Of a stretch of DNA of 43,724 nt, positions 1 to 41,273 are shown piece by piece. The DNA comes from Acidobacteriota bacterium (GTDB lineage Bacteria > Acidobacteriota > Thermoanaerobaculia > Multivoradales > J023). Under the pieces are notes generated by a model. It worked only from the letters and a program-made list of their open reading frames with translations. It was not told the origin of the DNA and did no database searches. Where the stretch lies: positions 1 to 43,724 of the forward strand of contig JAJCXO010000091.1 in assembly GCA_029263395.1 (NCBI GenBank). The letters are read 5' to 3'. Within the stretch, counting starts at the first letter, position 1, and every line of letters begins with the position of its first letter. The position numbers and the translations under genes were made by a program.

Positions 1-239
1 CGAATGGGGCCACTCTTGCTGCGGCGTGATCCGAGTTCTTTCTCAAGAGCCATGATGTGTGGTGCAAACCGGTCACAGAGTTCTCCCACAGCCGTAGCGA
101 ACGCCTCCTCGCTCGCGGTCTCTCTCATCCCCCAGTCAAGAAGATGGTTCGGCCCAGCAAGAACGGCATAGGCAAATCCCCGAGCCGTTGGATCGATACT
201 CAGTACCCACCAGGTGTTTTCAGGAGCTAGTCCTGACAT
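1..239 (-). CDS. RuvC-like nuclease, partial (C-terminus beyond window)
   Basis: The frame reads in from an ATG at 239 and runs off the left edge after about 79 residues. The N-terminus has a beta-strand motif, VLSIDPTARGFAYAVL, which matches the first strand of RuvC/RNase H-fold nucleases where the Asp binds catalytic metal. A second strand-like stretch, IMALEKEL, sits where RuvC-family proteins carry a catalytic Glu. The start overlaps the last 13 bases of the upstream HTH gene, so the two are probably translationally coupled. A RuvC-like resolvase in a mobile region could process branched DNA. It could also be another member of the RNase H-like fold, since only the N-terminal third is present. 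Confidence 0.5.
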   Translation of the reverse strand, partial: MSGLAPENTWWVLSIDPTARGFAYAVLAGPNHLLDWGMRETASEEAFATAVGELCDRFAPHIMALEKELGSRRSKSGPI

Positions 240-622
240 ACGTCAATGATGTTGTGCTCGCTGGAAGAGAGCGCTACTAATGACTCAAGCTTTCGCAGAC
301 GCAACCCTTCGGTCGATTCCTCGCGTAGCTCTCGGACAAGAAGATCCGCACGGATGGCTATTTGCTCTTCGACTTGTTGGTACAATCCGGCAAACAGATC
401 GTGGGCAGGAAACCCAAGAATCGCCGTATAGCCAAGCGCACGCTCGAGTGTCGGCATGTGCATACCGCGTTCGTGGTATGACACCACATTCTTGCCTGCC
501 ATATCGAGCAAGAGTGCAATGTCCTGCTGAGATAGGGCTAGTCTTCGACGAGCCGTCCGTAGGTAGTTACTGAGGTGTACGTGATCCATATACTGAAAGA
601 GTACAGCCAACAGCAACTTCAT
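227..622 (-). CDS. XRE-family helix-turn-helix regulator
   Basis: This 131-residue protein has a HTH_3-type DNA-binding domain at about residues 18-75: an LRTARRRLALSQQDIALLLDM recognition segment followed by SYHERGMHMPTLERAL. The C-terminal half is charged and helical, as in small dimeric repressors. An alternative start is the ATG at 589 (MDHVHLS), which begins right before the domain; neither start has a clear Shine-Dalgarno. A promoter-like pair lies at 637-665 and a direct repeat TTAAAGA sits at 622-628 and 640-646, so autorepression is plausible. It diverges from the recombinase module and is coupled to the RuvC-like gene downstream. It probably controls that module, but this is inferred from position only. 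Confidence 0.8.
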   Translation of the reverse strand: MKLLLAVLFQYMDHVHLSNYLRTARRRLALSQQDIALLLDMAGKNVVSYHERGMHMPTLERALGYTAILGFPAHDLFAGLYQQVEEQIAIRADLLVRELREESTEGLRLRKLESLVALSSSEHNIIDVCQD

Positions 623-636
623 TAAAGACTGATTAA

Positions 637-665
637 GTGTTAAAGAATTGCCACTTCGCCGTCAA
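637..665 (-). promoter_or_regulatory. Promoter of the HTH / RuvC-like pair, with repeat operator
   Basis: On the minus strand TTGACG (665-660) is separated by 17 bases from TAACAC (642-637). The direct repeat TTAAAGA at 640-646 and 622-628, 18 bases apart, overlaps the -10 box and the predicted transcription start, a fitting place for the repressor to bind its own promoter. Only sequence similarity to the sigma-70 consensus supports this. Confidence 0.45.
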
Positions 666-766
666 TATGTAAGCGGAGGGCTCAATCCCCTCTCATCCCT
701 CATAAGACAAAGTATTAGAACAAATCTAGGCTTTTCCGCAATCGTGCAGGAACTAGACTGTACGAG

Positions 767-970
767 ATGATTCCTCCCCACAATATAGACGAGTTCAAGA
801 GACTCTACAGCAGAAGATTTGGCGTCAAGCTCTCGGACGCAGACGCTCGGGTTAAGGCACGCAAGCTCATCAATCTCTTCAAGTCCGTGTATCGCGTTGA
901 CGACCCCCAGGTTGTCAACTCCAAGTCTCCGCACGGTCTGGTCTATACTGAAGATGATGGGAACCAATGA
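767..970 (+). CDS. Small conserved protein preceding serine recombinase
   Basis: This is a 67-residue protein with a helical core: IDEFKRLYSRRFGVKLSDADARVKARKLINLFKSVYR in order, of which the pattern 'EFKRLY..FG..LSD.DA..KA..L.NLF' is the recognisable part. I recall closely similar small proteins immediately upstream of serine recombinases in Patescibacteria genomes; their function is not known to me. Its stop codon overlaps the recombinase start by about 17 bases, so the two are almost certainly co-translated. A recombination directionality factor or recombinase partner is a reasonable guess from position, but there is no direct evidence. Confidence 0.65.
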   Translation: MIPPHNIDEFKRLYSRRFGVKLSDADARVKARKLINLFKSVYRVDDPQVVNSKSPHGLVYTEDDGNQ

Positions 971-2696
971 TATAAAATATTTTGCATACGTACGAAAATC
1001 ATCTGAGAGCAAGAAACGGCAGATGCTCTCTATCCCCCGGCAGAAGGATGATATCCGAGAGCGCTTTAGTGATCTTGACATTGAGTTTATCGAAGAAGAA
1101 CGTAGCGCATTTAAGTATCAAAATCGGCCGGAGTTCACCAGCATGCTCAAGCGGATTGAACGGGGTGAGCGTACCGGACTCATTGCCTGGCATCCCAACC
1201 GTCTTTCTCGCAATGAGAAGGATGCGGGCGAGATCACGTATGGCGTGCGACACGGCACAATAGAGGACTTGAGATTTTGTGCATATACATTCGACAACAG
1301 CCCCGAAGGCATCATGATGCTCCAATTTGCGCTCAGCCAGTCTCAGTATGAGTCAGCGAGTAAAAGCCCCTTCGTAAAATCAGGTCTCGCGAAGAAGGCC
1401 CGCATGGGCCATCCGCCGTATCAACCCATCATTGGCTACCAGAGCAAGGCAGGACGTGAAACCGGCGACAAAGAGTGGGAACCGGATCCCGTGCGGTTCA
1501 GTTTGGTGCAAGAGATGTGGGAGATGATGCTCTCCGGTCGGAATGCGCCGCCACAAATCCTCAAGATCGCGACCGATGAATGGAGACTGAGAACACCGCG
1601 ACACAAATCCATTGGCGGCAAAGCAATGGCACGCAGTGCGATCTATCGAATGTTTACCGATCCAACCTATACAGGACGCTTTGAGTACCCAAAGGGCTCT
1701 GGCAAGTGGCACAAGGGTGCCTACCCTCCAATCATCACGTGGGACGAATTTGAACGGGTGCAACTAATTCTTGGTAGAAAAGGAAAGCCGCGACCAAAGA
1801 AGCACACCTTCGCATATCGAGGGCCTATCCTCTGTGGCGAGTGTGGCTGCGGCGTAACCGCAGAGCAGAAGATTCATATCGTCTGTTCCGCCTGCAAACG
1901 AAAGTTCTCGGGTATCAGCAAGACCGAATGCCCTGGCTGCAACACCGATGTTTCAGAGATGAAGAGCCCTACTATTCGAAAGTACATACTGTACCACTGC
2001 ACTAAAAACAAGGAGCCGTGCTCACAGGGCTCGATCAACCAACAAGATCTAGAAGAGCAGATCTCGTCTGTGCTCCAAACCATTGAGATACCTCCCGAGT
2101 TCAAGGAATGGGTTCTCGGCTATCTCAAGAGGCAGAATCATGAAGAGTTTAAGAACCAAGGCCTCGTCGCCAAGAACCAACAAAGGGATCACACAACGTG
2201 TGTCAAGAGGCTCGACGGACTCATCGACATGCGTGCCAATGGCGAGTTGACCAGTCAGGAGTTCACGAACAGAAAGACGGCACTCGCACGTGAGAAAGCA
2301 CGGCTAGAAGCTCTTCTTGACGGAGGCAATGGGCGGACTGATAGCTGGGTCGAGATTGCGGAGAATGTACTGAGCTTCGCTGAACGAGCACGCTCAGAGT
2401 TCGAAAATGGCGACCTAGAGACGAAAAGAAGCATCTTTGCGTCGTTAGGTTCGAACCTCTCTTTGATCGACAATAGAGTCAGTATTCAAGCCGATCATCT
2501 ACTGTTTCCACTTGGACCCGTTGCTCGAACCGCGAAGACGGTTCATGAGTCGCTTCGAACCAAGAAAGAGCCGTCAACCACACGCGAAATGGGACTACTC
2601 TATGACCAACGTCCCTCAATGCTGCGAGCACGGGAAACCGTTCGAACTATGATCACATCACTATACCCTAGTTTCAAACTCATTGAATTCACATAA
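954..2696 (+). CDS. Large serine recombinase (site-specific integrase/resolvase)
   Basis: This 580-residue protein has the three-part layout of large serine recombinases. The N-terminal resolvase domain holds YVRKSSES with the likely catalytic Ser at about residue 16, then LSIPRQK, GLIAWHPNRLSRN and the helix leading to SPFVKSGL. A Recombinase domain follows at about residues 175-280. A zinc ribbon spans about 293-360 with CGECGCG, CSACKRK and CPGC pairs. A coiled coil then runs through about 400-480. The reading frame stays open upstream to 819, but ATGs at 954/957 place the start directly at the resolvase domain and in overlap with the small upstream gene, so I chose 954. The sequence style, including RKSSES, resembles Patescibacteria recombinases. 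It likely integrates or excises the surrounding element. Confidence 0.92.
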   Translation: MMGTNDIKYFAYVRKSSESKKRQMLSIPRQKDDIRERFSDLDIEFIEEERSAFKYQNRPEFTSMLKRIERGERTGLIAWHPNRLSRNEKDAGEITYGVRHGTIEDLRFCAYTFDNSPEGIMMLQFALSQSQYESASKSPFVKSGLAKKARMGHPPYQPIIGYQSKAGRETGDKEWEPDPVRFSLVQEMWEMMLSGRNAPPQILKIATDEWRLRTPRHKSIGGKAMARSAIYRMFTDPTYTGRFEYPKGSGKWHKGAYPPIITWDEFERVQLILGRKGKPRPKKHTFAYRGPILCGECGCGVTAEQKIHIVCSACKRKFSGISKTECPGCNTDVSEMKSPTIRKYILYHCTKNKEPCSQGSINQQDLEEQISSVLQTIEIPPEFKEWVLGYLKRQNHEEFKNQGLVAKNQQRDHTTCVKRLDGLIDMRANGELTSQEFTNRKTALAREKARLEALLDGGNGRTDSWVEIAENVLSFAERARSEFENGDLETKRSIFASLGSNLSLIDNRVSIQADHLLFPLGPVARTAKTVHESLRTKKEPSTTREMGLLYDQRPSMLRARETVRTMITSLYPSFKLIEFT

Positions 2697-2736
2697 GCGG
2701 CTAAAGCTTTGATACATACTCAGTCATCGAGTCGAC

Positions 2737-2805
2737 AACCGTATCAAATCGATCATGTTAACCGTATCAAAAACACTATCTTAACCGTATCACCAGTGAT
2801 ACGCG
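2737..2805. repeat. Iteron-like direct repeats, 3 copies at 23-bp period
   Basis: The core AACCGTATCA occurs at 2737-2746, 2760-2769 and 2783-2792, exactly 23 bases apart. The inverted core TGATAC also occurs at 2710-2715 and 2797-2802, flanking the array. Regular spacing of about two helical turns is typical of iterons bound by replication initiators. The array lies between the convergent recombinase and winged-helix genes. It could instead be a recombinase or regulator binding site. Confidence 0.7.
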
Positions 2806-2837
2806 AAATAATAAAAGGAAGTAATAAAAAGAAAGAT
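2805..2837. other. AT-rich tract next to iterons (possible DNA-unwinding element)
   Basis: About 33 bases made almost only of A, T and G purine runs (AAATAATAAAAGGAAGTAATAAAAAGAAAG) follow the iterons directly and end at the 3' end of the initiator-like gene. In iteron origins such a tract is where strands open. The identification rests on position and composition alone. Confidence 0.4.
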
Positions 2838-2842
2838 GGAAG

Positions 2843-3235
2843 TTAGCTCTTCTCTGTGTGGGGACAGCTCGGCTGTTTCCAGTGCCGTGTACTCAAAAGT
2901 GTATACCGATTGCTACGCTTCCCCTTCGAGCGTTCAACTCGGATCAGTCCATGCTCCTCAAGCACACCGATCGCCTTGAAGACCGTGTTCCTGTTCCCCA
3001 CTCCTGCCGCGCTCATGATCCGCTCCGCTGATGGGAAGCATCGCTGTGTGTGGTAGTTGGCATGCCGGGCTAACACTAGGTAGATCAGAGTCACGGTTGG
3101 CTTGAATACACGAAGAAGCCCCTTGTCGACATACTCGTGGTCTATGTAGAGGCGTGTGTTCTTTTTCTTGGGGCGAGGTGTGCTCCGTACGCGTGTTTGG
3201 TGATGGGTAAGGTGATCTCCAATGTGCCGCGTCAT
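2843..3235 (-). CDS. Winged-helix initiator-like DNA-binding protein
   Basis: This is a protein of about 130 residues with a basic N-terminus (RPKKKN) and a winged-helix domain. The conserved run is YIDHEYVDKGLLRVF, then a helix LIYLVLARHAN, then CFPSAERIMSAAGVGNRNTVFKAIGVLEEHGLIRVER, whose last part is a DnaD/Rep-like helix-turn-helix plus wing. I recall similar helix-turn-helix proteins close to serine recombinases in Patescibacteria. The iteron array and AT-rich tract start 6 bases past its stop, which fits a replication initiator acting on a nearby origin. ATG 3235 is preferred because GAAGAG lies just upstream; an in-frame ATG at 3280 would add 15 residues. A transcriptional regulator is the alternative. 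Confidence 0.65.
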   Translation of the reverse strand: MTRHIGDHLTHHQTRVRSTPRPKKKNTRLYIDHEYVDKGLLRVFKPTVTLIYLVLARHANYHTQRCFPSAERIMSAAGVGNRNTVFKAIGVLEEHGLIRVERSKGKRSNRYTLLSTRHWKQPSCPHTEKS

Positions 3236-3451
3236 AAGATAGGTCTCTTCATGGTATCGCTCTTCGCAGCCACACTCCACGAGTGTGTAGGTAGCAAGGA
3301 ATGATCTTCACTTCTGAGAGTGCTGAGATCACATTGAAAGAAATCGAAGGGCCTGTGGGAACGGCGGAAAGGTGTGAGGGTGGAAGGGGCGGACGGGCAG
3401 CTTTCCGCGGTTTCCATAGGGCATCTGGTTCCCGGTTTTCCAGACTTCAGC

Positions 3452-3485
3452 AAAAAGACCCGTCACAGCTGCCGCCGTGACGGGT
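3452..3485 (-). terminator. Rho-independent terminator for the frameshifted gene
   Basis: Read on the minus strand, ACCCGTCAC (3485-3477) pairs perfectly with GTGACGGGT (3466-3458), followed directly by CTTTTTG. This 9-bp stem with T-run lies 40 bases after the stop of the minus-strand gene at 3525. Confidence 0.8.
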
Positions 3486-3524
3486 AGAACCGGGGTTGGC
3501 CCGGGGTGATGAGAAACGAGAGAG

Positions 3525-4422
3525 CTAGCCCAGGGGAAGGCGTGTCCTCTCTCCAGCAGCACGCACGAACTCCTCAAGCAGAGCCCACAGACCAGGAACG
3601 CTGTGCTCAAACAAGAACTCCATCCGTGACACCTCGTCACGCCGTTTGGTTAGCTCAGCTATAGCAGCGACCTTCACCGTCGGGCGGATCATCCGAGCTT
3701 GTTTCCTCCGGTTCTCGTTGGCACCCTTGCCAAGCAATGCATCGACAAGATTCAGCAAAGCACACGCATGGATGTTCTCGAGATCGATCGATGGATCCCT
3801 CAGGACATCATCCAAGTCACTCGCACTCTTGAGCGCGTTGCGGCACAACTGGCCCGGAGGTGACAGTGGGTCATGACATCGGATCACCAGATCCAGGACG
3901 ACCCGCGCCTCAAGACACTCGTCAGAGGACAGCAGTACACGAAGAAGCGTCTCACGTGACTCTTGAGCAAGGCCGAGAGTCTTGTCGATCAGCTCGGCAA
4001 CTCCCTGAAAGTCTACCCACGATCGCGTCAACCTGAATCCTGAGCCGGTCGATACTCTCAAGCCATTCATTGGCAAACTCCACCCAGTTCTGTGCAGAGA
4101 TGATTGCGCTTGCAAGAAGCGGTATTGCTGCTCTGCCACATCGCTCTCTCGTCTCGTGACGAAACAACACCCCTGCTCGCCGCGGTTCCTGGGCCATCCG
4201 TGCGAGATCAAGGCGAATCTCTTTGATGTGGTCTTCTGGTATCTGGATCCGTTTGGCTCGGGCGACCGTCACCAAGTCATCGGCGAAGGCTCCAAGCTCC
4301 CGGTGAAGTGCCTCGATGTCGACGAGCGTCTCTCGGAGCAACTCGTACGCAACGGGGTATGGATCGGGGCAGACGGCAAGAAGATCGACAAGTCCGAAGA
4401 AGAGACGACGTTGGTCATTCAC
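3525..4422 (-). pseudogene. Unknown-function gene with a single frameshift
   Basis: Two overlapping minus-strand frames make one protein of about 298 residues. The first runs from ATG 4422 (MNDQRRLFFGLVDLL) to about 4018 at SIDRLRIQVDAIV. The second picks up at DFQGVAELIDKTLG and continues to the stop at 3525. The switch falls in a GGG run at 4016-4018: with one G fewer the frame continues smoothly. Both halves are helical and leucine-rich, without motifs I recognise; one stretch is LENIHACALLNLVDALLG. The terminator at 3452-3485 shows the unit was built as a single gene. It may be a real pseudogene, an assembly indel, or less likely programmed frameshifting. I cannot name a family. Confidence 0.65.
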
Positions 4423-4862
4423 CTAAAGGACAGTACGCCCACATTGCTCTCGATTGATCGTTTGCGCTCACCATTCACCGCTTCACCTGCCCCACGGTCG
4501 GGGGTTGTGTCGACAGGGCATCTGTTGCCGCACTGCTTCTGAATGGCGCGCCTTTTCTCCGCTCGATACAGATCAGAGTCTCTGCGTCATGAGAAAAGCT
4601 CGCTCGTCACTTTCACCTACCGATCGGTACGGAGTAGTGTCATTTGGGAGTTGGAGCATGAGCGTGGCACTTCAGCCGCCCATGTCTTCAGCTCACTGGA
4701 GGTGACACGATGTTGGTCAAAACTGCACTTCAATCTGGAGCTGGGCCAGGAGTAACACCTATCGGCTAGCCGTTCTCCATGGCGAGGGCATAAACCTGTG
4801 TCCTCGCCACTTGTGCGCTAGGGTCTCGTGATATTCTCTGAGCTGACTGGTGAAAGTATGTG
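4423..4862. other. 440-base region without a supported gene; holds one hairpin
   Basis: Short frames here show no motifs or plausible composition. The notable element is a 10-bp stem, GGCGAGGGCA (4781-4790) with TGTCCTCGCC (4799-4808) and an 8-base loop, about 55 bases before the TPR gene. It has no T-run, so it may be a leader structure rather than a terminator. The stretch probably holds the promoter regions of the divergent genes on either side, but no convincing -35/-10 pair stands out. Confidence 0.4.
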
Positions 4863-5963
4863 ATGCCGTACTCTAAGAAGCATGCCAAGCGACTGCTGCG
4901 AGAGCTTGATCTTCCAAGCGGTGTAGCACACGTACTGAGGCATCCGAGCTACTGGGATCCTGGCTTCGTGACGCTCTTCCTTGACCGTTGCGATCACGAG
5001 ATTTTTCACGATCCGCAGACTGGCCTCGCACTCGCTCGTGTAGCTCCAGACCTTGCGCTTCTGGTTCCTGAAGGGACAACTCCAGACGAGCACCGAATAC
5101 ATCGGGAGCGACTCGTCCGTGCATACGCAACGCTTGGTGGTGCGTATCGAGCGGTTGGTAGGCCAGACGACGGCAACGAGCCGTATCGACGCGCTCTCAA
5201 ACTATCGAGCACGATCTCACCCTTAGCCCAGGCTGATTTGTATCAACGCCTTGCTGCACTTCGGGCATATCAAAAGCGATTTGATGATGCGACGATGCTG
5301 CTCGAGAAGGCCATTGGTGTTTTCAGGGAACACGAACGATACGACGAGCTTGGATGTGCCTTTGCCGTACTCTCGTTTGCGCACATCGAAGCCGAGCGCT
5401 ATTCAGAGACACTCAAGGCCGCAAGCGAGGCTCTCTGCTACACCGATCCGAAGAAGAATGAACGAGTCCATTACTCAGCACTTCACAACTTCATCTGTGC
5501 GGCGATCCGTTCAACCGATCTGGAGGCACTTGGAGCGGCCTGGCCAAAAATTCGTGAAGCGAGACGCTTGATCCGTCGGCACCGTCGAAGCCTGCCCAAG
5601 CTCAAGCTCTACTGGGTTGAAGGGCTCCTGCTTCACAAGCTGCACCTCACGAAACGCGCCGAGCAGCTGTACGAGAAGGCTCGGAAGGGCTTTGTAGAAC
5701 TTGACGCAGTCTATGAGATCGCGCTCGTTGATCTCTCACTCTCGACTCTTTACTGCGTCGAGGGACGGTGGGATGAGCTTGAGCGACTTTCCCGCGAGAC
5801 TCTCGAACGATTCACTGCTCTCTCTCATACCGACAGTGAGACGATCGCTGCTTTGGAGCTGTGGGTGAGGTCAACGGAGGCTCACACTCTCACGCCACTC
5901 GTGGCTATTGCTATTCGGGATACGGTGATTCGTCGCACGGCAGCGCATCGCGGCGTGCCGTAG
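4863..5963 (+). CDS. Tetratricopeptide-repeat protein of acidobacterial type
   Basis: This 366-residue protein has no signal peptide. After an N-terminal helical region (HAKRLLRELDLPSGVAHVL) it carries an array of TPR-like helix pairs. Examples are AYATLGGAYRAVGRPDDGNEPYRRAL, LYQRLAALRAYQKRFDDATMLLEKA and DLSLSTLYCVEGRWDELERL, spread over about residues 95-330. TPR arrays bind other proteins, so this is probably a cytoplasmic scaffold or sensor. I recall the N-terminal pattern (a short segment, then FLDRCDHEIFHDPQTGLALARVA) from many Acidobacteriota proteins. A GTG at 4860 directly precedes the chosen ATG 4863, and GGTGAAAG upstream is a weak ribosome site. It ends 76 bases before a convergent gene. 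Confidence 0.75.
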   Translation: MPYSKKHAKRLLRELDLPSGVAHVLRHPSYWDPGFVTLFLDRCDHEIFHDPQTGLALARVAPDLALLVPEGTTPDEHRIHRERLVRAYATLGGAYRAVGRPDDGNEPYRRALKLSSTISPLAQADLYQRLAALRAYQKRFDDATMLLEKAIGVFREHERYDELGCAFAVLSFAHIEAERYSETLKAASEALCYTDPKKNERVHYSALHNFICAAIRSTDLEALGAAWPKIREARRLIRRHRRSLPKLKLYWVEGLLLHKLHLTKRAEQLYEKARKGFVELDAVYEIALVDLSLSTLYCVEGRWDELERLSRETLERFTALSHTDSETIAALELWVRSTEAHTLTPLVAIAIRDTVIRRTAAHRGVP

Positions 5964-6039
5964 CGAATTTCGGCTTCAATTCATTTCAGGAGGGGGCGCG
6001 CCAGTGCTTGAAGAGCCACTCCTCTCACGGATTGCTAGC

Positions 6040-8523
6040 TCAAAGACACCCCAAGCCAGCTGTTTGAAGCTCAAAGACCCCGCGACCGAATGTCACAGCG
6101 TAGAGTTTCGATGAATCTGGGGTGATCCCAAGGCCCTCCACTCGAAGTGTGGTTAAGCCGCTAATGAGTGCTCGCCACGTCACTCCGCCATCTCCACTGC
6201 CAAACACGCCACCAAAAGAATCAGCGACATAGATCCGCTCTAGGTCGTTCGGATCAAAGACGAACTTCGAGGCGAACGTGCCGACAAGGCTTGTTGGCTG
6301 CCAGGTTGACGCTCCGTCGTTTGAGCGCATCACGCCGGCAGTTGTTCCCAGGAGAAGCATCGACGAATCGTGCGGATTCACCCCGATCTCAACATAGGAA
6401 CCCCCGGGCAAACCCTCGTCTGCCCGTACCCAAGAAGTGCCACCATCAACACTCTTGTACACCGTACTGTTGCGTTGGTCGGTAGCATAGGTGACAAGCC
6501 CATTGGTTGGGTCGTGTTTGACAGAGAAGACTTGTGCTTCACTGCCAATCCCATCGTTCGAGAGGCTCCATGTGAGCCCTCGATCAGTACTCTTGTAGAT
6601 ACCAACCCCGATGGTTCCGGCAAGGAGCACGTTTGGGTCGTCGGGATCTTGGCTGAGGCTGAGTGCGTAGGTTCCTTCAGTCAGGTCACTTTGATTCCAT
6701 GTGAGTCCGTAGTCGACACTGCGGTATACGCCAAGCCCGGTCGCGATGTACAGGATGCTGCTATCACCATGGTCGATGACTATTTCTGACACGCTAAATA
6801 GGTTCTCAGAGGAACCTGTCCATGACACGCCAGCGTCGGTGCTTCGGTAGACAAAATCCTGACCACCGACAGCATAGACTCGGCTGGGATCAGTCGGGTC
6901 GACCTCAACACCATTGAGGAAAATAGCCGAGAAGCCGCTGTTGCTTTCGCTCCATGACACGCCAGCGTTAGCGCTTCTGTAGAAACCTGACGGAGTAAAT
7001 CCCGCATAGACCAATGAGGGATCCGACGGATTGACGTCAATTGCTCGAGCTGCGACTAGCGGAGTTCCGTCACTGTGACGTGTCCAGGTCAATCCCTGGT
7101 CGGTACTTTCGAAGATTCCGTGCGATGAGGCGGCGAAGATCCGATCGCTGTTAGAGGGGTCGATCGTGACATTGTTGGTGAAGTTGTTTGGGTTGACGCT
7201 CGTCCATGAGTCGCCGCCGTTTGTCGACCGGAAGGTCCCGTTAAGCGACGTGCCAAGATGGACAATGCTTGGCGTTTCGGGGTCAACTGCGAGTGTTTGA
7301 AGGGCTGCGGTCGTGAGGCCGACATTACGAGCGATCCAATTCGCACCACCATCGTCACTTCGGTAGAAGCCGGTATTGGTGGCGGCATAGAAGACTGTGG
7401 GTGACGCAAACCCAAGACCATAGACAATGCCGAGGCTCGGACTGATCGGGCTCCATGAGCTGCCACCGTTGGTGCTCTGATACACCCGCTGCCACCCGGC
7501 AAGGAGGTGTGTCGGATCGTCAGGATGCATCGCGAGTGCCTGGATACTTGTTGCGTCAATACCAGTGTTCATCTCAGTCCACGTCGTTCCGCCGTTATCG
7601 GTCTTGGCAACACCACCGCCAGTCGTTGAGGCATAGAGGGTGGTGGGAGTTGTGGGGTCGAGAACGATGTCAGTGACAAACTGACGAAGTCCGCTGTCAG
7701 CCGGAGCCCAAGATGAACCGCCATCGGTGCTCTTGAAGACACCCGAGAAGGTTGCGGCATAGAGGGTCGCTGGTGGTGCAGTGACAATCTCGTAGATAGC
7801 GCCGCCATAGGGACCGTTACTGCTCCAGACCGCTTGACACGCTTGCTGCCAGGCGCTTGTGTCACCTGACTCAAATGAGTCAGCGAAGATGAGTGACGGC
7901 AAGAATTGGGTGACTGCTCCATCGGTTGCAACGACATCAGCCACAAGATCATCCGAGTCGAACGCCCAGGCAGACGAGACGCTGTCATCCGTGGAGAAGT
8001 TGAAATCAAGTGCCGTTGTTGAAGGACACGTCTCGATGACGTAGTCAAGGATGAGGTTCTCTCCCGAGGACCCATCGAAGCAGAATTCATGAGTGAACGG
8101 GACGTTGATGTCGAACGGGTGTGGTGCTGAACCTGCCATCTCACTCGAAGCACTAAAGGAGCCCGAGAAGACTGTGATGGCGTCGGCACCGATGTTGTCG
8201 GCGAATGTACTGCTCAGGCCATCAACTGCCATCGGTGTTGACGAAATCGAGAGCGTGAGGTCGGTCACGGCAACCGGACCAAAAGGCTCACCAAAGAGTG
8301 AGTCAGGGCGGTATCTCACCTCGCCGATGCACAGTGTCCCCACTTCGCTGCCGTCGTATACCTGCTGGAAGCGAGCGGATGCGATCGGGCTGCAGTGAAG
8401 CGGCCAAATGTTCTCGGAACTGCCCTCGGCTTTTTCGAGGTTGTTGGGGACGACAACTTGGGCTTGAAGTGGTGTAGCGAGGGTGACGAGCAGCAGTAGG
8501 GTGACGAAACGTAGCCTGGGCAA
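6040..8523 (-). CDS. Secreted BNR/sortilin-like beta-propeller protein
   Basis: This 827-residue protein has a clear signal peptide: MPRLR, then LLLLVTLATP, cleavage near LQAQ. Residues 25-215 form a non-repeat domain with Cys. A linker FADSFESGDTSAWQQAC follows at about 213-230, of the 'FADGFESGDTSAW' type I associate with Thermoanaerobaculia exported proteins. The rest is some twelve to fourteen repeats of about 45 residues carrying the BNR signature S-x-D-x-G-x-T/S-W, as in STDGGSSWAP, STNGGSSWSP and STDRGLTWSL. This matches BNR/VPS10-like propellers that bind sugars or proteins outside the cell. It is not a sialidase on present evidence, since the catalytic Arg triad is not apparent. It is transcribed away from the XRE gene at 8637. 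Confidence 0.85.
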   Translation of the reverse strand: MPRLRFVTLLLLVTLATPLQAQVVVPNNLEKAEGSSENIWPLHCSPIASARFQQVYDGSEVGTLCIGEVRYRPDSLFGEPFGPVAVTDLTLSISSTPMAVDGLSSTFADNIGADAITVFSGSFSASSEMAGSAPHPFDINVPFTHEFCFDGSSGENLILDYVIETCPSTTALDFNFSTDDSVSSAWAFDSDDLVADVVATDGAVTQFLPSLIFADSFESGDTSAWQQACQAVWSSNGPYGGAIYEIVTAPPATLYAATFSGVFKSTDGGSSWAPADSGLRQFVTDIVLDPTTPTTLYASTTGGGVAKTDNGGTTWTEMNTGIDATSIQALAMHPDDPTHLLAGWQRVYQSTNGGSSWSPISPSLGIVYGLGFASPTVFYAATNTGFYRSDDGGANWIARNVGLTTAALQTLAVDPETPSIVHLGTSLNGTFRSTNGGDSWTSVNPNNFTNNVTIDPSNSDRIFAASSHGIFESTDQGLTWTRHSDGTPLVAARAIDVNPSDPSLVYAGFTPSGFYRSANAGVSWSESNSGFSAIFLNGVEVDPTDPSRVYAVGGQDFVYRSTDAGVSWTGSSENLFSVSEIVIDHGDSSILYIATGLGVYRSVDYGLTWNQSDLTEGTYALSLSQDPDDPNVLLAGTIGVGIYKSTDRGLTWSLSNDGIGSEAQVFSVKHDPTNGLVTYATDQRNSTVYKSVDGGTSWVRADEGLPGGSYVEIGVNPHDSSMLLLGTTAGVMRSNDGASTWQPTSLVGTFASKFVFDPNDLERIYVADSFGGVFGSGDGGVTWRALISGLTTLRVEGLGITPDSSKLYAVTFGRGVFELQTAGLGCL

Positions 8524-8588
8524 TCCTCCTGAAGAGCGTAGACACCAGTGCGCCTGGTTTGTGTGTCTTCAAGAGTATAACCAATTAT

Positions 8589-8612
8589 CGGGTACCCGTT
8601 ATTGGGGTATCC
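8589..8612. promoter_or_regulatory. Palindromic operator candidate between divergent genes
   Basis: The perfect palindrome CGGGTACCCG (8589-8598) is followed 6 bases later by the related half-site GGGTATCC (8605-8612). They lie between the propeller gene start (8523) and the XRE gene start (8637). This is a natural binding site for the adjacent XRE repressor, inferred from symmetry and position. Confidence 0.4.
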
Positions 8613-8636
8613 ATCTAAGGGTTAGAGCATGGGGGT

Positions 8637-8855
8637 ATGCCGTCCCGACACCCTGAGGAATACCGCAAGATGCTCCTTCGCCTTCGCCAGGCGAGGATGG
8701 ACGCACAGCTCACCCAAGAGGCTGTCGCCGAGAAGATCGGCGTCAGGCAGAATCTCGTCTCGAAGATGGAGCTGGGTGAGCGGCGGATTGATGTGGTCGA
8801 GCTCGCGGAATTCGCCAAGCTCTACGACAAGCCGCTTGAGTTTTTTGTGGATTGA
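8637..8855 (+). CDS. Small XRE-family helix-turn-helix regulator
   Basis: This 72-residue protein is essentially a single HTH_3 domain: a helix MLLRLRQARMDAQLTQEAVAEKIG followed by the recognition helix RQNLVSKMELGERRIDVVELAEFAKLY. Sequence and length match Cro/C1-type controllers that also occur as C-proteins and phage repressors. A palindrome lies 40 bases upstream, suggesting autoregulation and possible control of the divergent propeller gene. The DUF3644 gene follows 85 bases later on the same strand, so the two may form a unit in which this protein limits expression of the possible nuclease. That last link is inference. Confidence 0.88.
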   Translation: MPSRHPEEYRKMLLRLRQARMDAQLTQEAVAEKIGVRQNLVSKMELGERRIDVVELAEFAKLYDKPLEFFVD

Positions 8856-8940
8856 TATCTACCCGCCCCGGGTCGTAAGATCTTTGATGACTTTGTGTTG
8901 TTTGTGATGAACACCAGTGTAGATCGGAGGTGGGTTTTCG

Positions 8941-10017
8941 ATGCCAAGAGGGCTCCCGCAAGTAGTTAGAGAGAATCTGGAAAAGTGCCAGAGCGCCGCT
9001 CTTGCCGCAGTTGAGTCCTACAATCGACCGGGACCGCGCTTCCGCACAGCTCAGTATCTCGTCATGATTGTGATCGCATGGACAGCTTTTTTTCATGCTG
9101 TGTTCTACCGTAGAGGCGAGAGACCTTGGTATCGGAAGAGGAATTCCGGTGCAGGTACAGGTGTGAGGTACCAAAAGATCGATGGAGAACCCCGGCACTG
9201 GGACCTGTCGGAATGCCTGAAGCATTACTTCGGCGACCAGAATCCGCCAGAACGGCAGAATCTAGAGTTCCTTCTCAAACTCCGCAACAAGATTGAGCAC
9301 CGCCACTTGCCAGAGTTGGATGCTTCTCTCTACGGTGAGTGTCAGGCGGCGTTGATGAATCTAGAGGAGAAGGTCGTTTCCGAATTTGGCGCACGATACG
9401 CTCTCCAAGACCAGCTTGCGGTATCTCTCCAGTTTTCCAGAACGACCCCGGCTGAGAAGAAGAGAGCAGCGAGAATCCTGGCCTCTGATTCAGCGAAATC
9501 AGTGACTGACTACATCGAACGCTTCCGCGGGAGATTGGCCCCTACTGTACTAAACAGCATGCGTTACTCGTTCAGCGTATTCTTGGTTCCGAAGGTTGCG
9601 AACCGACGAAGTGCAGCTGACGCGGCTGTTGAGTTTGTTCCAGTGGATGAAGCAAGCGAGCCAGAGTTGGCGCGCCTTGAGAAGCTCAATGTGCTTATTC
9701 GAGAAAAGAAAATTCCGATAGCCAACCTCAATCGCAGAAAGCCAAGCCAAGTTGTCGACGAGCTTAAAGATGTCTTGTCTTTTCCAGTGAACGTCAGCGT
9801 ACACACTGCCGCTTGGAAGCACTTCAAAGTTCGTCCTAAGGGAGGATCGGCAAGGCCCGATCGAACACAGACGGACTTTTGTATCTATGATGAAGTTCAC
9901 GGCGACTATACCTACACCCAGGCATGGATCAATAAACTCAGGGAAGCTCTCAGCACAACGGAGGGCTACCGTGAGATCGTCGGCAGAGAACCGTTGTGTG
10001 AACTTGGTGATCCTTAA
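8941..10017 (+). CDS. DUF3644 protein with HEPN-type Rx4H motif
   Basis: This 358-residue protein matches the DUF3644 pattern as I know it. It has an N-terminal helix bundle with FFHAVFYRRGE, then LLKLRNKIEHR (R115 to H120), followed by LYGECQAALMNLEEKVVSEFG and LAVSLQFSR. The R-x4-H with a polar residue after Arg is the catalytic signature of HEPN-fold RNases, many of which act in toxin-antitoxin and phage defence. The C-terminus (YTYTQAWINKLREALS) is also conserved in the family. GGAGG lies 11 bases before the ATG. It follows a small XRE regulator and closes the accessory region. RNA cleavage is inferred from the fold; no antitoxin partner other than the XRE gene is visible. Confidence 0.75.
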   Translation: MPRGLPQVVRENLEKCQSAALAAVESYNRPGPRFRTAQYLVMIVIAWTAFFHAVFYRRGERPWYRKRNSGAGTGVRYQKIDGEPRHWDLSECLKHYFGDQNPPERQNLEFLLKLRNKIEHRHLPELDASLYGECQAALMNLEEKVVSEFGARYALQDQLAVSLQFSRTTPAEKKRAARILASDSAKSVTDYIERFRGRLAPTVLNSMRYSFSVFLVPKVANRRSAADAAVEFVPVDEASEPELARLEKLNVLIREKKIPIANLNRRKPSQVVDELKDVLSFPVNVSVHTAAWKHFKVRPKGGSARPDRTQTDFCIYDEVHGDYTYTQAWINKLREALSTTEGYREIVGREPLCELGDP

Positions 10018-10081
10018 TCCGATCGGGCCTCTAATCGGTTTGCTTGAGGACTCGCGAGGCGTCGTCAGTGCTGTGTCTTTT

Positions 10082-10102
10082 GCGCGACATTCCGCGCGAC
10101 AT
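10082..10102. repeat. Short direct repeat GCGCGACAT at the island edge
   Basis: GCGCGACAT occurs at 10082-10090 and 10094-10102, 12 bases apart, between the DUF3644 gene and tRNA-Gln. This is where an island boundary would be expected. Two 9-base copies could also arise by chance. Confidence 0.35.
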
Positions 10103-10150
10103 CACCCCCGAAAACAGGCTCCACAGAACGAAAAGCAACGCCAACAAACG

Positions 10151-10175
10151 AAAAAGGCGGACCGTAGTCCGCCTT
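10151..10175 (-). terminator. Terminator of the tRNA-Gln transcript
   Basis: On the minus strand AAGGCGGAC (10175-10167) pairs with GTCCGCCTT (10162-10154) around a 4-base loop, a 9-bp stem that runs into TTTTTCG. It lies about 70 bases past the 3' end of tRNA-Gln. Confidence 0.85.
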
Positions 10176-10243
10176 CTCTAAACCGCTTCAATACAGTGAC
10201 TTAGCTAGATATCGTCTTCATCGTTTGCGTGTTGTAGAAGCGT

Positions 10244-10317
10244 TGGCTGGGAGACAGGGATTCGAACCCCGATTCTACGGTCCAGAGCCGCATGTCCTAC
10301 CGTTAGACGATCTCCCA
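10244..10317 (-). tRNA. tRNA-Gln (anticodon CTG)
   Basis: The minus strand folds into a standard cloverleaf of 74 bases with encoded CCA. The acceptor stem is TGGGAGA with TCTCCCA, and the T arm is CGGGG-TTCGAAT-CCCTG. The anticodon stem TGCGG/CCGTA encloses the loop CTCTGGA, giving anticodon CTG, which reads CAG for glutamine. It follows gltX on the same strand and has its own promoter and terminator. It adjoins the accessory region to the left. Confidence 0.95.
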
Positions 10318-40478: not shown

Positions 40479-41273
40479 ATGGCGAACAGAACACAAGCGA
40501 CTCCTTGGTGGGTGACGGCCGGTTGTGGCTGCTGTGGTCTGTTCCTGTTGGCGCTCGGTGCCATCGTTGCGGCAGGATACCTCGGAGTGTCGGCGGTCAA
40601 AGACTACGTCGAGGACCTGAAAGATCCGGCAGCGCGGGCGGTCAAGGCGGGACAGATCCTCGGCGCCTCGGAGCTTCCCGCCGGCTACTCGGCTCAGGTT
40701 TACCTGCGCATCCCCTGGGTTTTTGATCTGGTGATCCTCAGTGACGGTGAACCGGCGGTCATGGAGGGTGACGAGATGGAGCTCGAGCCCAAGAACTTCG
40801 GTGAGCACGTCTTCGTGTTCTTCACGTTGCGGCAGGGCAGCATGGACGAGGAAGAGATCGACGACATGTTGCAAGGTCGGCGCACCAAGGACGGTGTCGA
40901 GATTGATGTCGGATTCGAGGTTGATGTCGAACAACAGCTGGCTGAAGGAGCTTTTGAGATCGGTGCGCAGCGCATCAGTTACATTGCCTACCGTGGCGAT
41001 GTGCTGTTCGAAGGTGATCCGGAGCCAGGGATCTTCAGCCGGATCCTTTTCGATTGTGAGGGTGATCAACTCACCCGAGCTGGCGTTTGGCTGCGCAGAG
41101 AAGCTGCGGTGTCTGAAGATGCGGTGCCCAACACGGTTGCGCCCAACACGGTTGCGCCCAACACGGTGGCGCCCAATCCGATGGCGGGGGATACCCTCGA
41201 ACTCAGCGGTTCGCCGGCTGACGAAGCGTCGTTGCGTGAGTTCTTGGGCCACTTCGACGTGTGCAACGATTGA
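40479..41273 (+). CDS. Membrane-anchored protein of unknown function
   Basis: This 264-residue protein has a single N-terminal membrane segment, VTAGCGCCGLFLLALGAIVAAGYLGV (about residues 12-37), with a Cys-rich start (CGCCG), then an outer acidic domain. Parts are ELPAGYSAQVYLRIPWVFDLVILSDGEP and EHVFVFFTLRQGSMDEEEIDDMLQG, mostly beta strands. A repeat region NTVAP, four times with the last degenerate, lies at about residues 217-236. I recall similar proteins with a short membrane anchor in Acidobacteriota and Deltaproteobacteria, without known function. It begins 42 bases after argS and may be in its transcript. Confidence 0.7.
   Translation: MANRTQATPWWVTAGCGCCGLFLLALGAIVAAGYLGVSAVKDYVEDLKDPAARAVKAGQILGASELPAGYSAQVYLRIPWVFDLVILSDGEPAVMEGDEMELEPKNFGEHVFVFFTLRQGSMDEEEIDDMLQGRRTKDGVEIDVGFEVDVEQQLAEGAFEIGAQRISYIAYRGDVLFEGDPEPGIFSRILFDCEGDQLTRAGVWLRREAAVSEDAVPNTVAPNTVAPNTVAPNPMAGDTLELSGSPADEASLREFLGHFDVCND
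41127..41186 (+). repeat. 15-bp tandem repeat in coding sequence (four copies)
   Basis: CCCAACACGGTTGCG occurs at 41127-41141 and 41142-41156, with one change at 41157-41171 and a degenerate fourth copy at 41172-41186. It codes for the pentapeptide PNTVA repeated in frame. The near identity of copies at the DNA level points to recent slippage expansion, probably variable between strains. Confidence 0.85.

Follow-up and report, generated by a model that had tools for sequence, protein, structure and literature searches.

In the window, by which we mean the whole 43,724-bp stretch of DNA analysed, an array of repeats, an AT-rich tract and a small HTH_36 winged-helix gene lie side by side, and, going by comparison of sequences, we lean slightly towards reading them as a compact theta-type replication origin, namely a lambda-O-style iteron origin with a shortened initiator (Table 1). 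In the mechanism that we infer, a dimer of the HTH_36 protein would bind the TGATAC half-sites within the three TGATACGGTT iterons and the flanking inverted copies, whereupon the bound array would strain and open the adjacent AT-rich tract. A replicative helicase, probably that of the host, would then be loaded at the opened tract, and the island that carries the array would be copied after its integrase had excised it from tRNA-Gln.

Table 1. Coordinates of the candidate origin, the neighbouring recombinase module and the island end in the window.
Feature	Position	Strand	Basis
Gene cut by the contig end, N-terminal part; RuvC-like by eye only, no Pfam match	3..239	-	
Gene for an XRE-type regulator, recombinase module; CII-like by PHROG, HTH_31 below the Pfam cut-off	227..622	-	
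Small ORF, 67 aa, overlapping the recombinase start	767..970	+	
Large serine recombinase gene (580 aa), with its end 40 bp short of the first repeat	954..2696	+	
Three TTCGAAC sites (2450, 2554, 2641) in the recombinase 3' end; recombinase-family signal, distinct from the iterons	2449..2647	+	
Inverted TGATAC half-site, far side of the repeats	2710..2715	+	
Iteron 3, TGATACGGTT, 23 bp on from iteron 2	2737..2746	-	
Iteron 2, TGATACGGTT, 23 bp on from iteron 1	2760..2769	-	
Iteron 1, counted from the putative initiator gene, TGATACGGTT	2783..2792	-	
Inverted TGATAC half-site; palindrome 2786-2803 with the iteron at 2783	2797..2802	+	
AT-rich tract with the lowest duplex stability of any 40-mer in the 43.7-kb window; candidate DNA unwinding element	2806..2845	.	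nearest-neighbour energies
Single-domain winged-helix gene (HTH_36), putative initiator; possible ATG start at 3235	2843..3280	-	Pfam, PHROG
Right island end: 3' end of tRNA-Gln, repeated on C88	10243..10263	.	
tRNA-Gln(CTG), integration target	10244..10317	-	

The 146 bp of non-coding DNA that separate the convergent 3' ends of the serine recombinase gene and the winged-helix gene contain three copies of AACCGTATCA with a period of exactly 23 bp, just as the first-pass annotation had described, and regularly spaced direct repeats of this kind are a feature of iteron-type origins. Read along the neighbouring HTH_36 gene the copies are TGATACGGTT and lie 3' of its stop codon. The inverted TGATAC cores that had been noticed outside the repeats are likewise in place, and the second of them forms, together with repeat 3 (at 2783), an 18-bp palindrome, CGTATCAC-CA-GTGATACG. 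On the winged-helix strand, the order runs from the stop codon through the AT-rich tract to the inverted half-site that shares the palindrome with the first TGATACGGTT, followed by two more TGATACGGTT and the outer inverted half-site. Outside the 10-mer the copies differ from each other: over 23 nt the first two agree to 74%, and copy 3, at 66%, was left ungrouped with them. Exact triples of at least 8 bp at equal spacing were absent from 20 first-order Markov copies of the window, and the spaced pair CCGTATCA-N15-CCGTATCA occurred in 1 of 396 genomes of the phylum, namely the source genome, which together render a chance origin of the array very unlikely. The real window holds one further exact equal-spacing triple, at 41126, within a periodic repeat of GCCCAACACGGT (15-bp period, 41126-41180) far from the island. 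A literature search with the 10-mer and the 9-mer listed matches that look unrelated, judged by title and start of the abstract, and that are probably primers, while blastn of the 146-bp intergenic region against plasmids returned 6 records in which the A/T-rich part alone was matched.

Adjoining the array is a candidate unwinding element, a further feature of iteron-type origins. The AT-rich tract had been pointed out before, and quantification placed it at the extreme of the window: the 33 bp at 2806-2838 are 82% A+T, a level reached by only 2 of 10,207 windows in positions 1-10240, both of them here, and, upon summing nearest-neighbour energies, the slightly longer segment in Table 1 showed the lowest duplex stability of all 40-mers. 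The earlier statement that the winged-helix stop codon is 6 bases away holds for this tract (~6 bases) but not for the nearest repeat, which is 50 bases away. No DnaA box with at most one mismatch to TTATCCACA was present at 2300-3600, where the consensus used is that of E. coli and may not apply here. Lambda-type origins are not known to be defined by DnaA boxes.

The same stretch of DNA might instead be an array of regulatory operators, at which TGATAC would be bound by the HTH_36 protein, or by an XRE-type protein encoded on the island, to control transcription rather than replication, a reading that we judge unlikely. Inverted half-sites and the 18-bp palindrome would fit a repressor that acts as a dimer, the HTH_36 protein has no domain besides its winged helix, and the island part of the window contains two XRE-type genes (227-622 and 8637-8855), the latter small gene being adjoined by a DUF3644 gene at 8941-10017 near the right island end. 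However, the array is flanked by gene ends only, as both neighbours terminate there and neither begins there, and the one promoter-like match in 2600-3500 does not exceed what shuffled sequence gives. Regulation would also leave the least stable duplex of the window, right alongside, unexplained, and the same motif is found elsewhere inside initiator-like genes, as set out below.

The candidate initiator behind the proposed origin is small. Its ORF encodes 145 aa from a GTG, or 130 aa from the internal ATG, and scores 50.8 bits against PF13730 (HTH_36; cut-off 25). Its best PHROG match (E 9.6e-12, residues 59-138) is to the replication initiation protein phrog_270, and the PHROG matches cover the N-terminal part of replication initiation and O-like families that are longer than the window's protein, which stops where those continue. 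Because the HTH_36 match runs to residue 113 and the best PHROG match to residue 138 of 145, there is no room for a further domain, and the C-terminal helicase/loader-interaction domain, a lambda-O-like feature, is absent. By analogy, the origin would most likely work like that of lambda without an O-like C-terminal domain, and the absence of this domain is why we call it a variant instead of filing the protein as an O-like initiator. A winged-helix gene adjoining the array would fit the initiator gene expected of an iteron origin, and the earlier proposal of an iteron origin with its initiator survives by comparison with related loci, in the restricted form of a protein with a single winged-helix domain.

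This gene is rare in its surroundings. The source genome (10.7 Mb) has one HTH_36 match only. Of 59 nearby genomes, 2 had a match to the protein at E<=1e-3, and so did 2 of the 396 genomes of the phylum at E<=1e-4, the source genome included in both counts, which suggests a mobile gene without near relatives here. No close relatives were confirmed by a scan of viral contigs with the HTH protein, nor by a recombinase-only scan of genome and viral contigs. A PDB sequence search with the HTH protein gave no match at E<=0.01, and an AlphaFold model built without an alignment had a mean pLDDT of 42 and was unusable.

To place the arrangement of gene and repeats, we compared the window with 18 loci, of which 11 resemble its winged helix (11 of 16 matches of the window protein were taken) and 7 resemble that of the L162 phage gene (a search with the L162 N-terminus had given 28 phage records, 7 of which were taken). 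Upon scoring for three copies of a 7-mer at near-equal spacing within 450 bp after the winged helix, 7 of 19 loci passed, the window included, compared to an expectation of 0.015 from Markov copies; these were the window, 2 of the 11 found with the window protein and 4 of the 7 found with the L162 protein. With repeats at 2 of the 11 homologues found with the window protein, the earlier refuting condition, an absence of repeats near homologues of the gene, does not apply. No periodic repeat followed the winged helix in 12 of the 18 comparators, and the control test on the 450 bp upstream of it gave 0 of 18. Origin repeats straight after a winged-helix segment are a lambda-O-like feature that the window shares, here 3' of the stop codon and not in the gene, and in other loci different repeated 9-mers follow the winged helix. 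Four relatives are short as well. In the Bacillus paralicheniformis plasmid L180, a circular plasmid record, which passed the test, a short helix-turn-helix gene (116 aa) stops and is followed by three TATACTCA at 13 bp; in the Bacillus phage L184 (125 aa) similar repeats were seen by eye that failed the strict test and were counted as a miss; and L179 and L181 have no such repeats after the gene. The HTH_36 genes of L106 and L053 showed no repeats nearby.

The arrangement could alternatively be a relic, in which the array and the winged helix derive from a phage or plasmid initiator gene shorn of its C-terminal half and have ceased to start replication. The missing C-terminal domain and the divergence outside the 10-mer cores are consistent with such decay, as is the position of the array against the recombinase 3' end, at which the relatives of this enzyme often meet other DNA. 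We nevertheless regard a relic as rather improbable, since the exact 23-bp phase and three intact 10-mers have been kept and since a circular plasmid record, that of L180, has a short HTH gene with repeats 3' of its stop codon.

The 10-mer of the candidate origin is shared with some phage initiator-like genes. A scan of viral contigs for triple TGATACGGT clusters yielded 14 stretches, and in three of these (L158, L162 and L166) the cluster lies inside an initiator-like gene, directly after a winged-helix-like segment. Seven stretches (L157, L159, L160, L161, L164, L165 and L167) were set aside as other coding or simple tandem repeats, and four (L152, L153, L154 and L163) have irregular clusters, L152 and L153 representing one phage type. 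The reversed motif gave 12 stretches; going by inspection of their translations by eye, none of these lies in a winged-helix gene. The contrast between 3 of 14 and 0 of 12 is small, and the scan was seeded with the window's own motif. Runs of TGATACGGTT/TGATACAGTT are present behind the winged-helix-like segment of L158, L162 and the Riemerella phage L169, the arrays of L158 and L162 being 12-bp tandem coding repeats. L169 was found by protein similarity to L162, and its TGATACGGTT/TGATACAGTT copies lie right behind the winged helix, spaced by multiples of 12 bp, with an annotated replicative helicase as the next gene; by eye, the next gene is an ATPase in L158 and DnaB-like in L162. In L166 the segment is followed by TGATACGGTATCA. 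The PHROG matches of the L158, L162 and L166 genes include replication initiation or helicase-loader families, and phrog_270 (replication initiation) is the best PHROG of L166 and of the window protein alike. With Pfam, L158 and L166 reach HTH models below cut-off only, and L162 none. Direct BLASTP similarity of the window protein to TGATACGG-type genes is weak (E 0.009 for L169, stray matches only for L166), and its match to L184, which is without the motif array, has an E of 3e-10. The N-terminus of L166 found nothing by tblastn against phages.

Viral contigs were also scanned for ACCGTATCA-N14-ACCGTATCA, and four stretches came up. In three of them (two from one phage type) CGTATCA is present in 10-13 copies, almost all crowded into a few hundred bases. 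Among the phage contigs with irregular clusters, 9-16 TGATAC(GG) sites occur in L152 (3601-4025), L154 (7985-8240) and L163 (3241-3422). In L152 the cluster follows a D5-like primase/helicase gene, and its blastn comparison with phages returned 6 matches, all weak and partial. The L154 cluster surrounds a small gene, Zn-finger-like by eye, whose protein found nothing by tblastn against phages.

That the repeats are accessory or attachment sites of the serine recombinase is very improbable. They start 40 bp past the stop codon of this enzyme, and many relatives have a tRNA gene, presumably the attachment site, abutting the 3' end of the recombinase, yet TGATACGG/CCGTATCA was absent within 400 bp downstream in all 83 relatives with at least 100 bp of flank, three equal-spacing triples among 87 recombinase-related loci (1.36 Mb) lie ~2.6 kb or more from the recombinase, and the recurrent signal of the family is a spaced TTCGAA palindrome inside the gene. 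With the motif in 0 of 83 relatives, the iterons are not a general feature of the recombinase.

The recombinase family has features of its own. Its relatives were the best 80 of 480 genome loci, many titled Patescibacteria, plus 4 viral ones; 87 were counted, with two duplicate records left out and near-identical ones possibly remaining. The 3' end of the recombinase was overlapped by an antisense tRNA gene in 54 of the 87 (34/47, 20/35 and 0/5 by batch, the first 31 of the 47-locus batch having been chosen for a TTCGAA site near the recombinase stop), and the tRNAs overlapped were Asn, Gln, Ser, Gly, Asp, Lys, Trp and Phe. The window recombinase has TTCGAA sites but no tRNA there. Spacings of 186, 83, 103, 101 and 110 between TTCGAA sites inside the 3' ends recurred as 13, 11, 9, 9 and 5 pairs in 88 loci (window included) and in different reading frames, while the commonest spacings of control hexamers occurred once each. 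The recurrence may be partly due to shared ancestry and conserved residues. These palindromes resemble the tRNA T-loop, and the pattern looks like selection at the DNA level on a coding region, with an attachment site built into the recombinase gene. Small ORFs similar to that overlapping the recombinase start were present at 30 of 90 loci scanned. In 2 of 34 loci of a tRNA-end comparison with flanks of at most 10 kb and often less (L074 11545-11558, L127 11627-11639), 13-14 bp of the tRNA end recur ~10.25 kb upstream, possibly as the left ends of ~10-kb elements moved by the family. L053 carries a decayed second recombinase tail (10185-10290) and a second small ORF (8929-9129) beside an intact recombinase, which suggests tandem insertion at one site. 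An att pair of AACCGTTCGAACTA (14 bp; window 2636-2649, C88 28800-28813) was rejected, as it lies beyond ORFs reading by eye as aconitase, dihydroorotase and dUTPase, and a 14-bp match somewhere in the comparison is not improbable (by our own estimate, the probability is roughly a quarter). Literature searches pairing large serine recombinases at tRNA genes with Patescibacteria or Candidate Phyla Radiation brought up no paper with this combination among those listed.

The candidate origin lies in an island integrated in tRNA-Gln. The gene truncated at position 1 of the window resumes, with its C-terminal part, at 8-235 of contig C88, and the two contigs are reverse complements of each other over their first six bases. 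The tRNA-Gln 3' end repeats in the same orientation at C88 16355-16372 (18 bp), within the end of an integrase ORF, and at C88 18477-18493 (17 bp). Flanking repeats of the tRNA 3' end are a feature of tRNA-integrated elements that depends here on the link between C88 and the window; if the two are adjacent, these repeats make the region a ~26.6-kb island in tRNA-Gln that runs onto C88. An integrase gene adjoining the island end, another such feature, is present as well, in the form of a tyrosine recombinase ORF (C88 15049-16383) that overlaps the left repeat and is preceded by an excisionase-like gene. The first-pass annotation had suggested an element that both integrates and replicates, beside a serine recombinase, and had named 1-10150 as the stretch to check for raised coverage. 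The array does lie inside an integrated island, whose right edge (10243) is close to the end of that stretch, but the island runs well beyond it, onto C88, and has a tyrosine recombinase as its edge integrase. C88 further encodes two TrwB-type coupling-like ATPases and a Replic_Relax protein. Two radical SAM genes, a ProRS-like gene recognised by Pfam and another ProRS-like ORF seen by eye lie in C88 (L156) 3826-8738 and may be cargo or form a biosynthetic cluster. The tRNA-Gln site seems to be re-used: a contig of G001, a genome of the same genus, ends inside the same tRNA, and another begins with 474 bp that are 97% identical to C88 18028-18493.

More tentatively, and as a possibility that we hold doubtful, TGATACGGTT and its cognate winged helix could be a portable initiator-iteron cassette common to phages (including those of Riemerella) and the island, pared in the latter to one DNA-binding domain that would melt an exceptionally unstable tract and leave helicase loading to others, giving a minimal integrative element that replicates after excision. 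Self-replication of integrated islands after excision would bear on their persistence and spread, and a one-domain initiator with intergenic iterons would, if true, be near the smallest such unit. The shared 10-mer makes the protein-DNA code of HTH_36-type initiators directly testable with short oligonucleotides.

Overall, the candidate origin can be set beside four known systems. RK2-type iteron plasmids combine a winged-helix initiator, iterons and an AT-rich unwinding element (PMC4980987), and the window has a putative winged-helix initiator, iterons and an AT-rich candidate unwinding element to match. RK2 oriV has DnaA boxes, whereas none is recognisable here, and the initiator shown in the cited review (1REP) has two winged helices, whereas the protein here has one. 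The PLE satellites of Vibrio cholerae carry a large serine recombinase, a RepA_N initiator and iterons (PMC7145576), and resemble the island as integrated elements with their own initiator (a putative one here) and iterons. They differ in having RepA_N in place of HTH_36 and in being phage satellites, whereas the edge integrase here is a tyrosine recombinase and the island has coupling-protein-like and Replic_Relax genes. In lambda, the iterons and an AT-rich tract lie in the middle of gene O (PMC7466680), and with O and ori-lambda the window shares a DNA-binding segment followed by repeated sites and an AT-rich tract in one short block. Here, by contrast, a stop codon stands between gene and repeats, so that the sites are non-coding, the C-terminal domain is lacking, and the AT-rich tract lies between gene and iterons. 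To our knowledge, the iteron sequence of the window is unrelated to the lambda iterons. In the phage O-like/DnaD-like initiators (PHROG 270, 186 and 19658; for example Riemerella phage CRP5, IMG/VR L158, L162 and L166) the sites encode DTV repeats at 12 or 18 bp within a protein of 232-266 aa, whereas those of the window have a 23-bp period and lie beyond the end of a gene for 145 aa. The proteins show little direct sequence similarity; what these initiators have in common with the window is a winged-helix-like N-terminus with TGATACGGTT-type sites directly after it.
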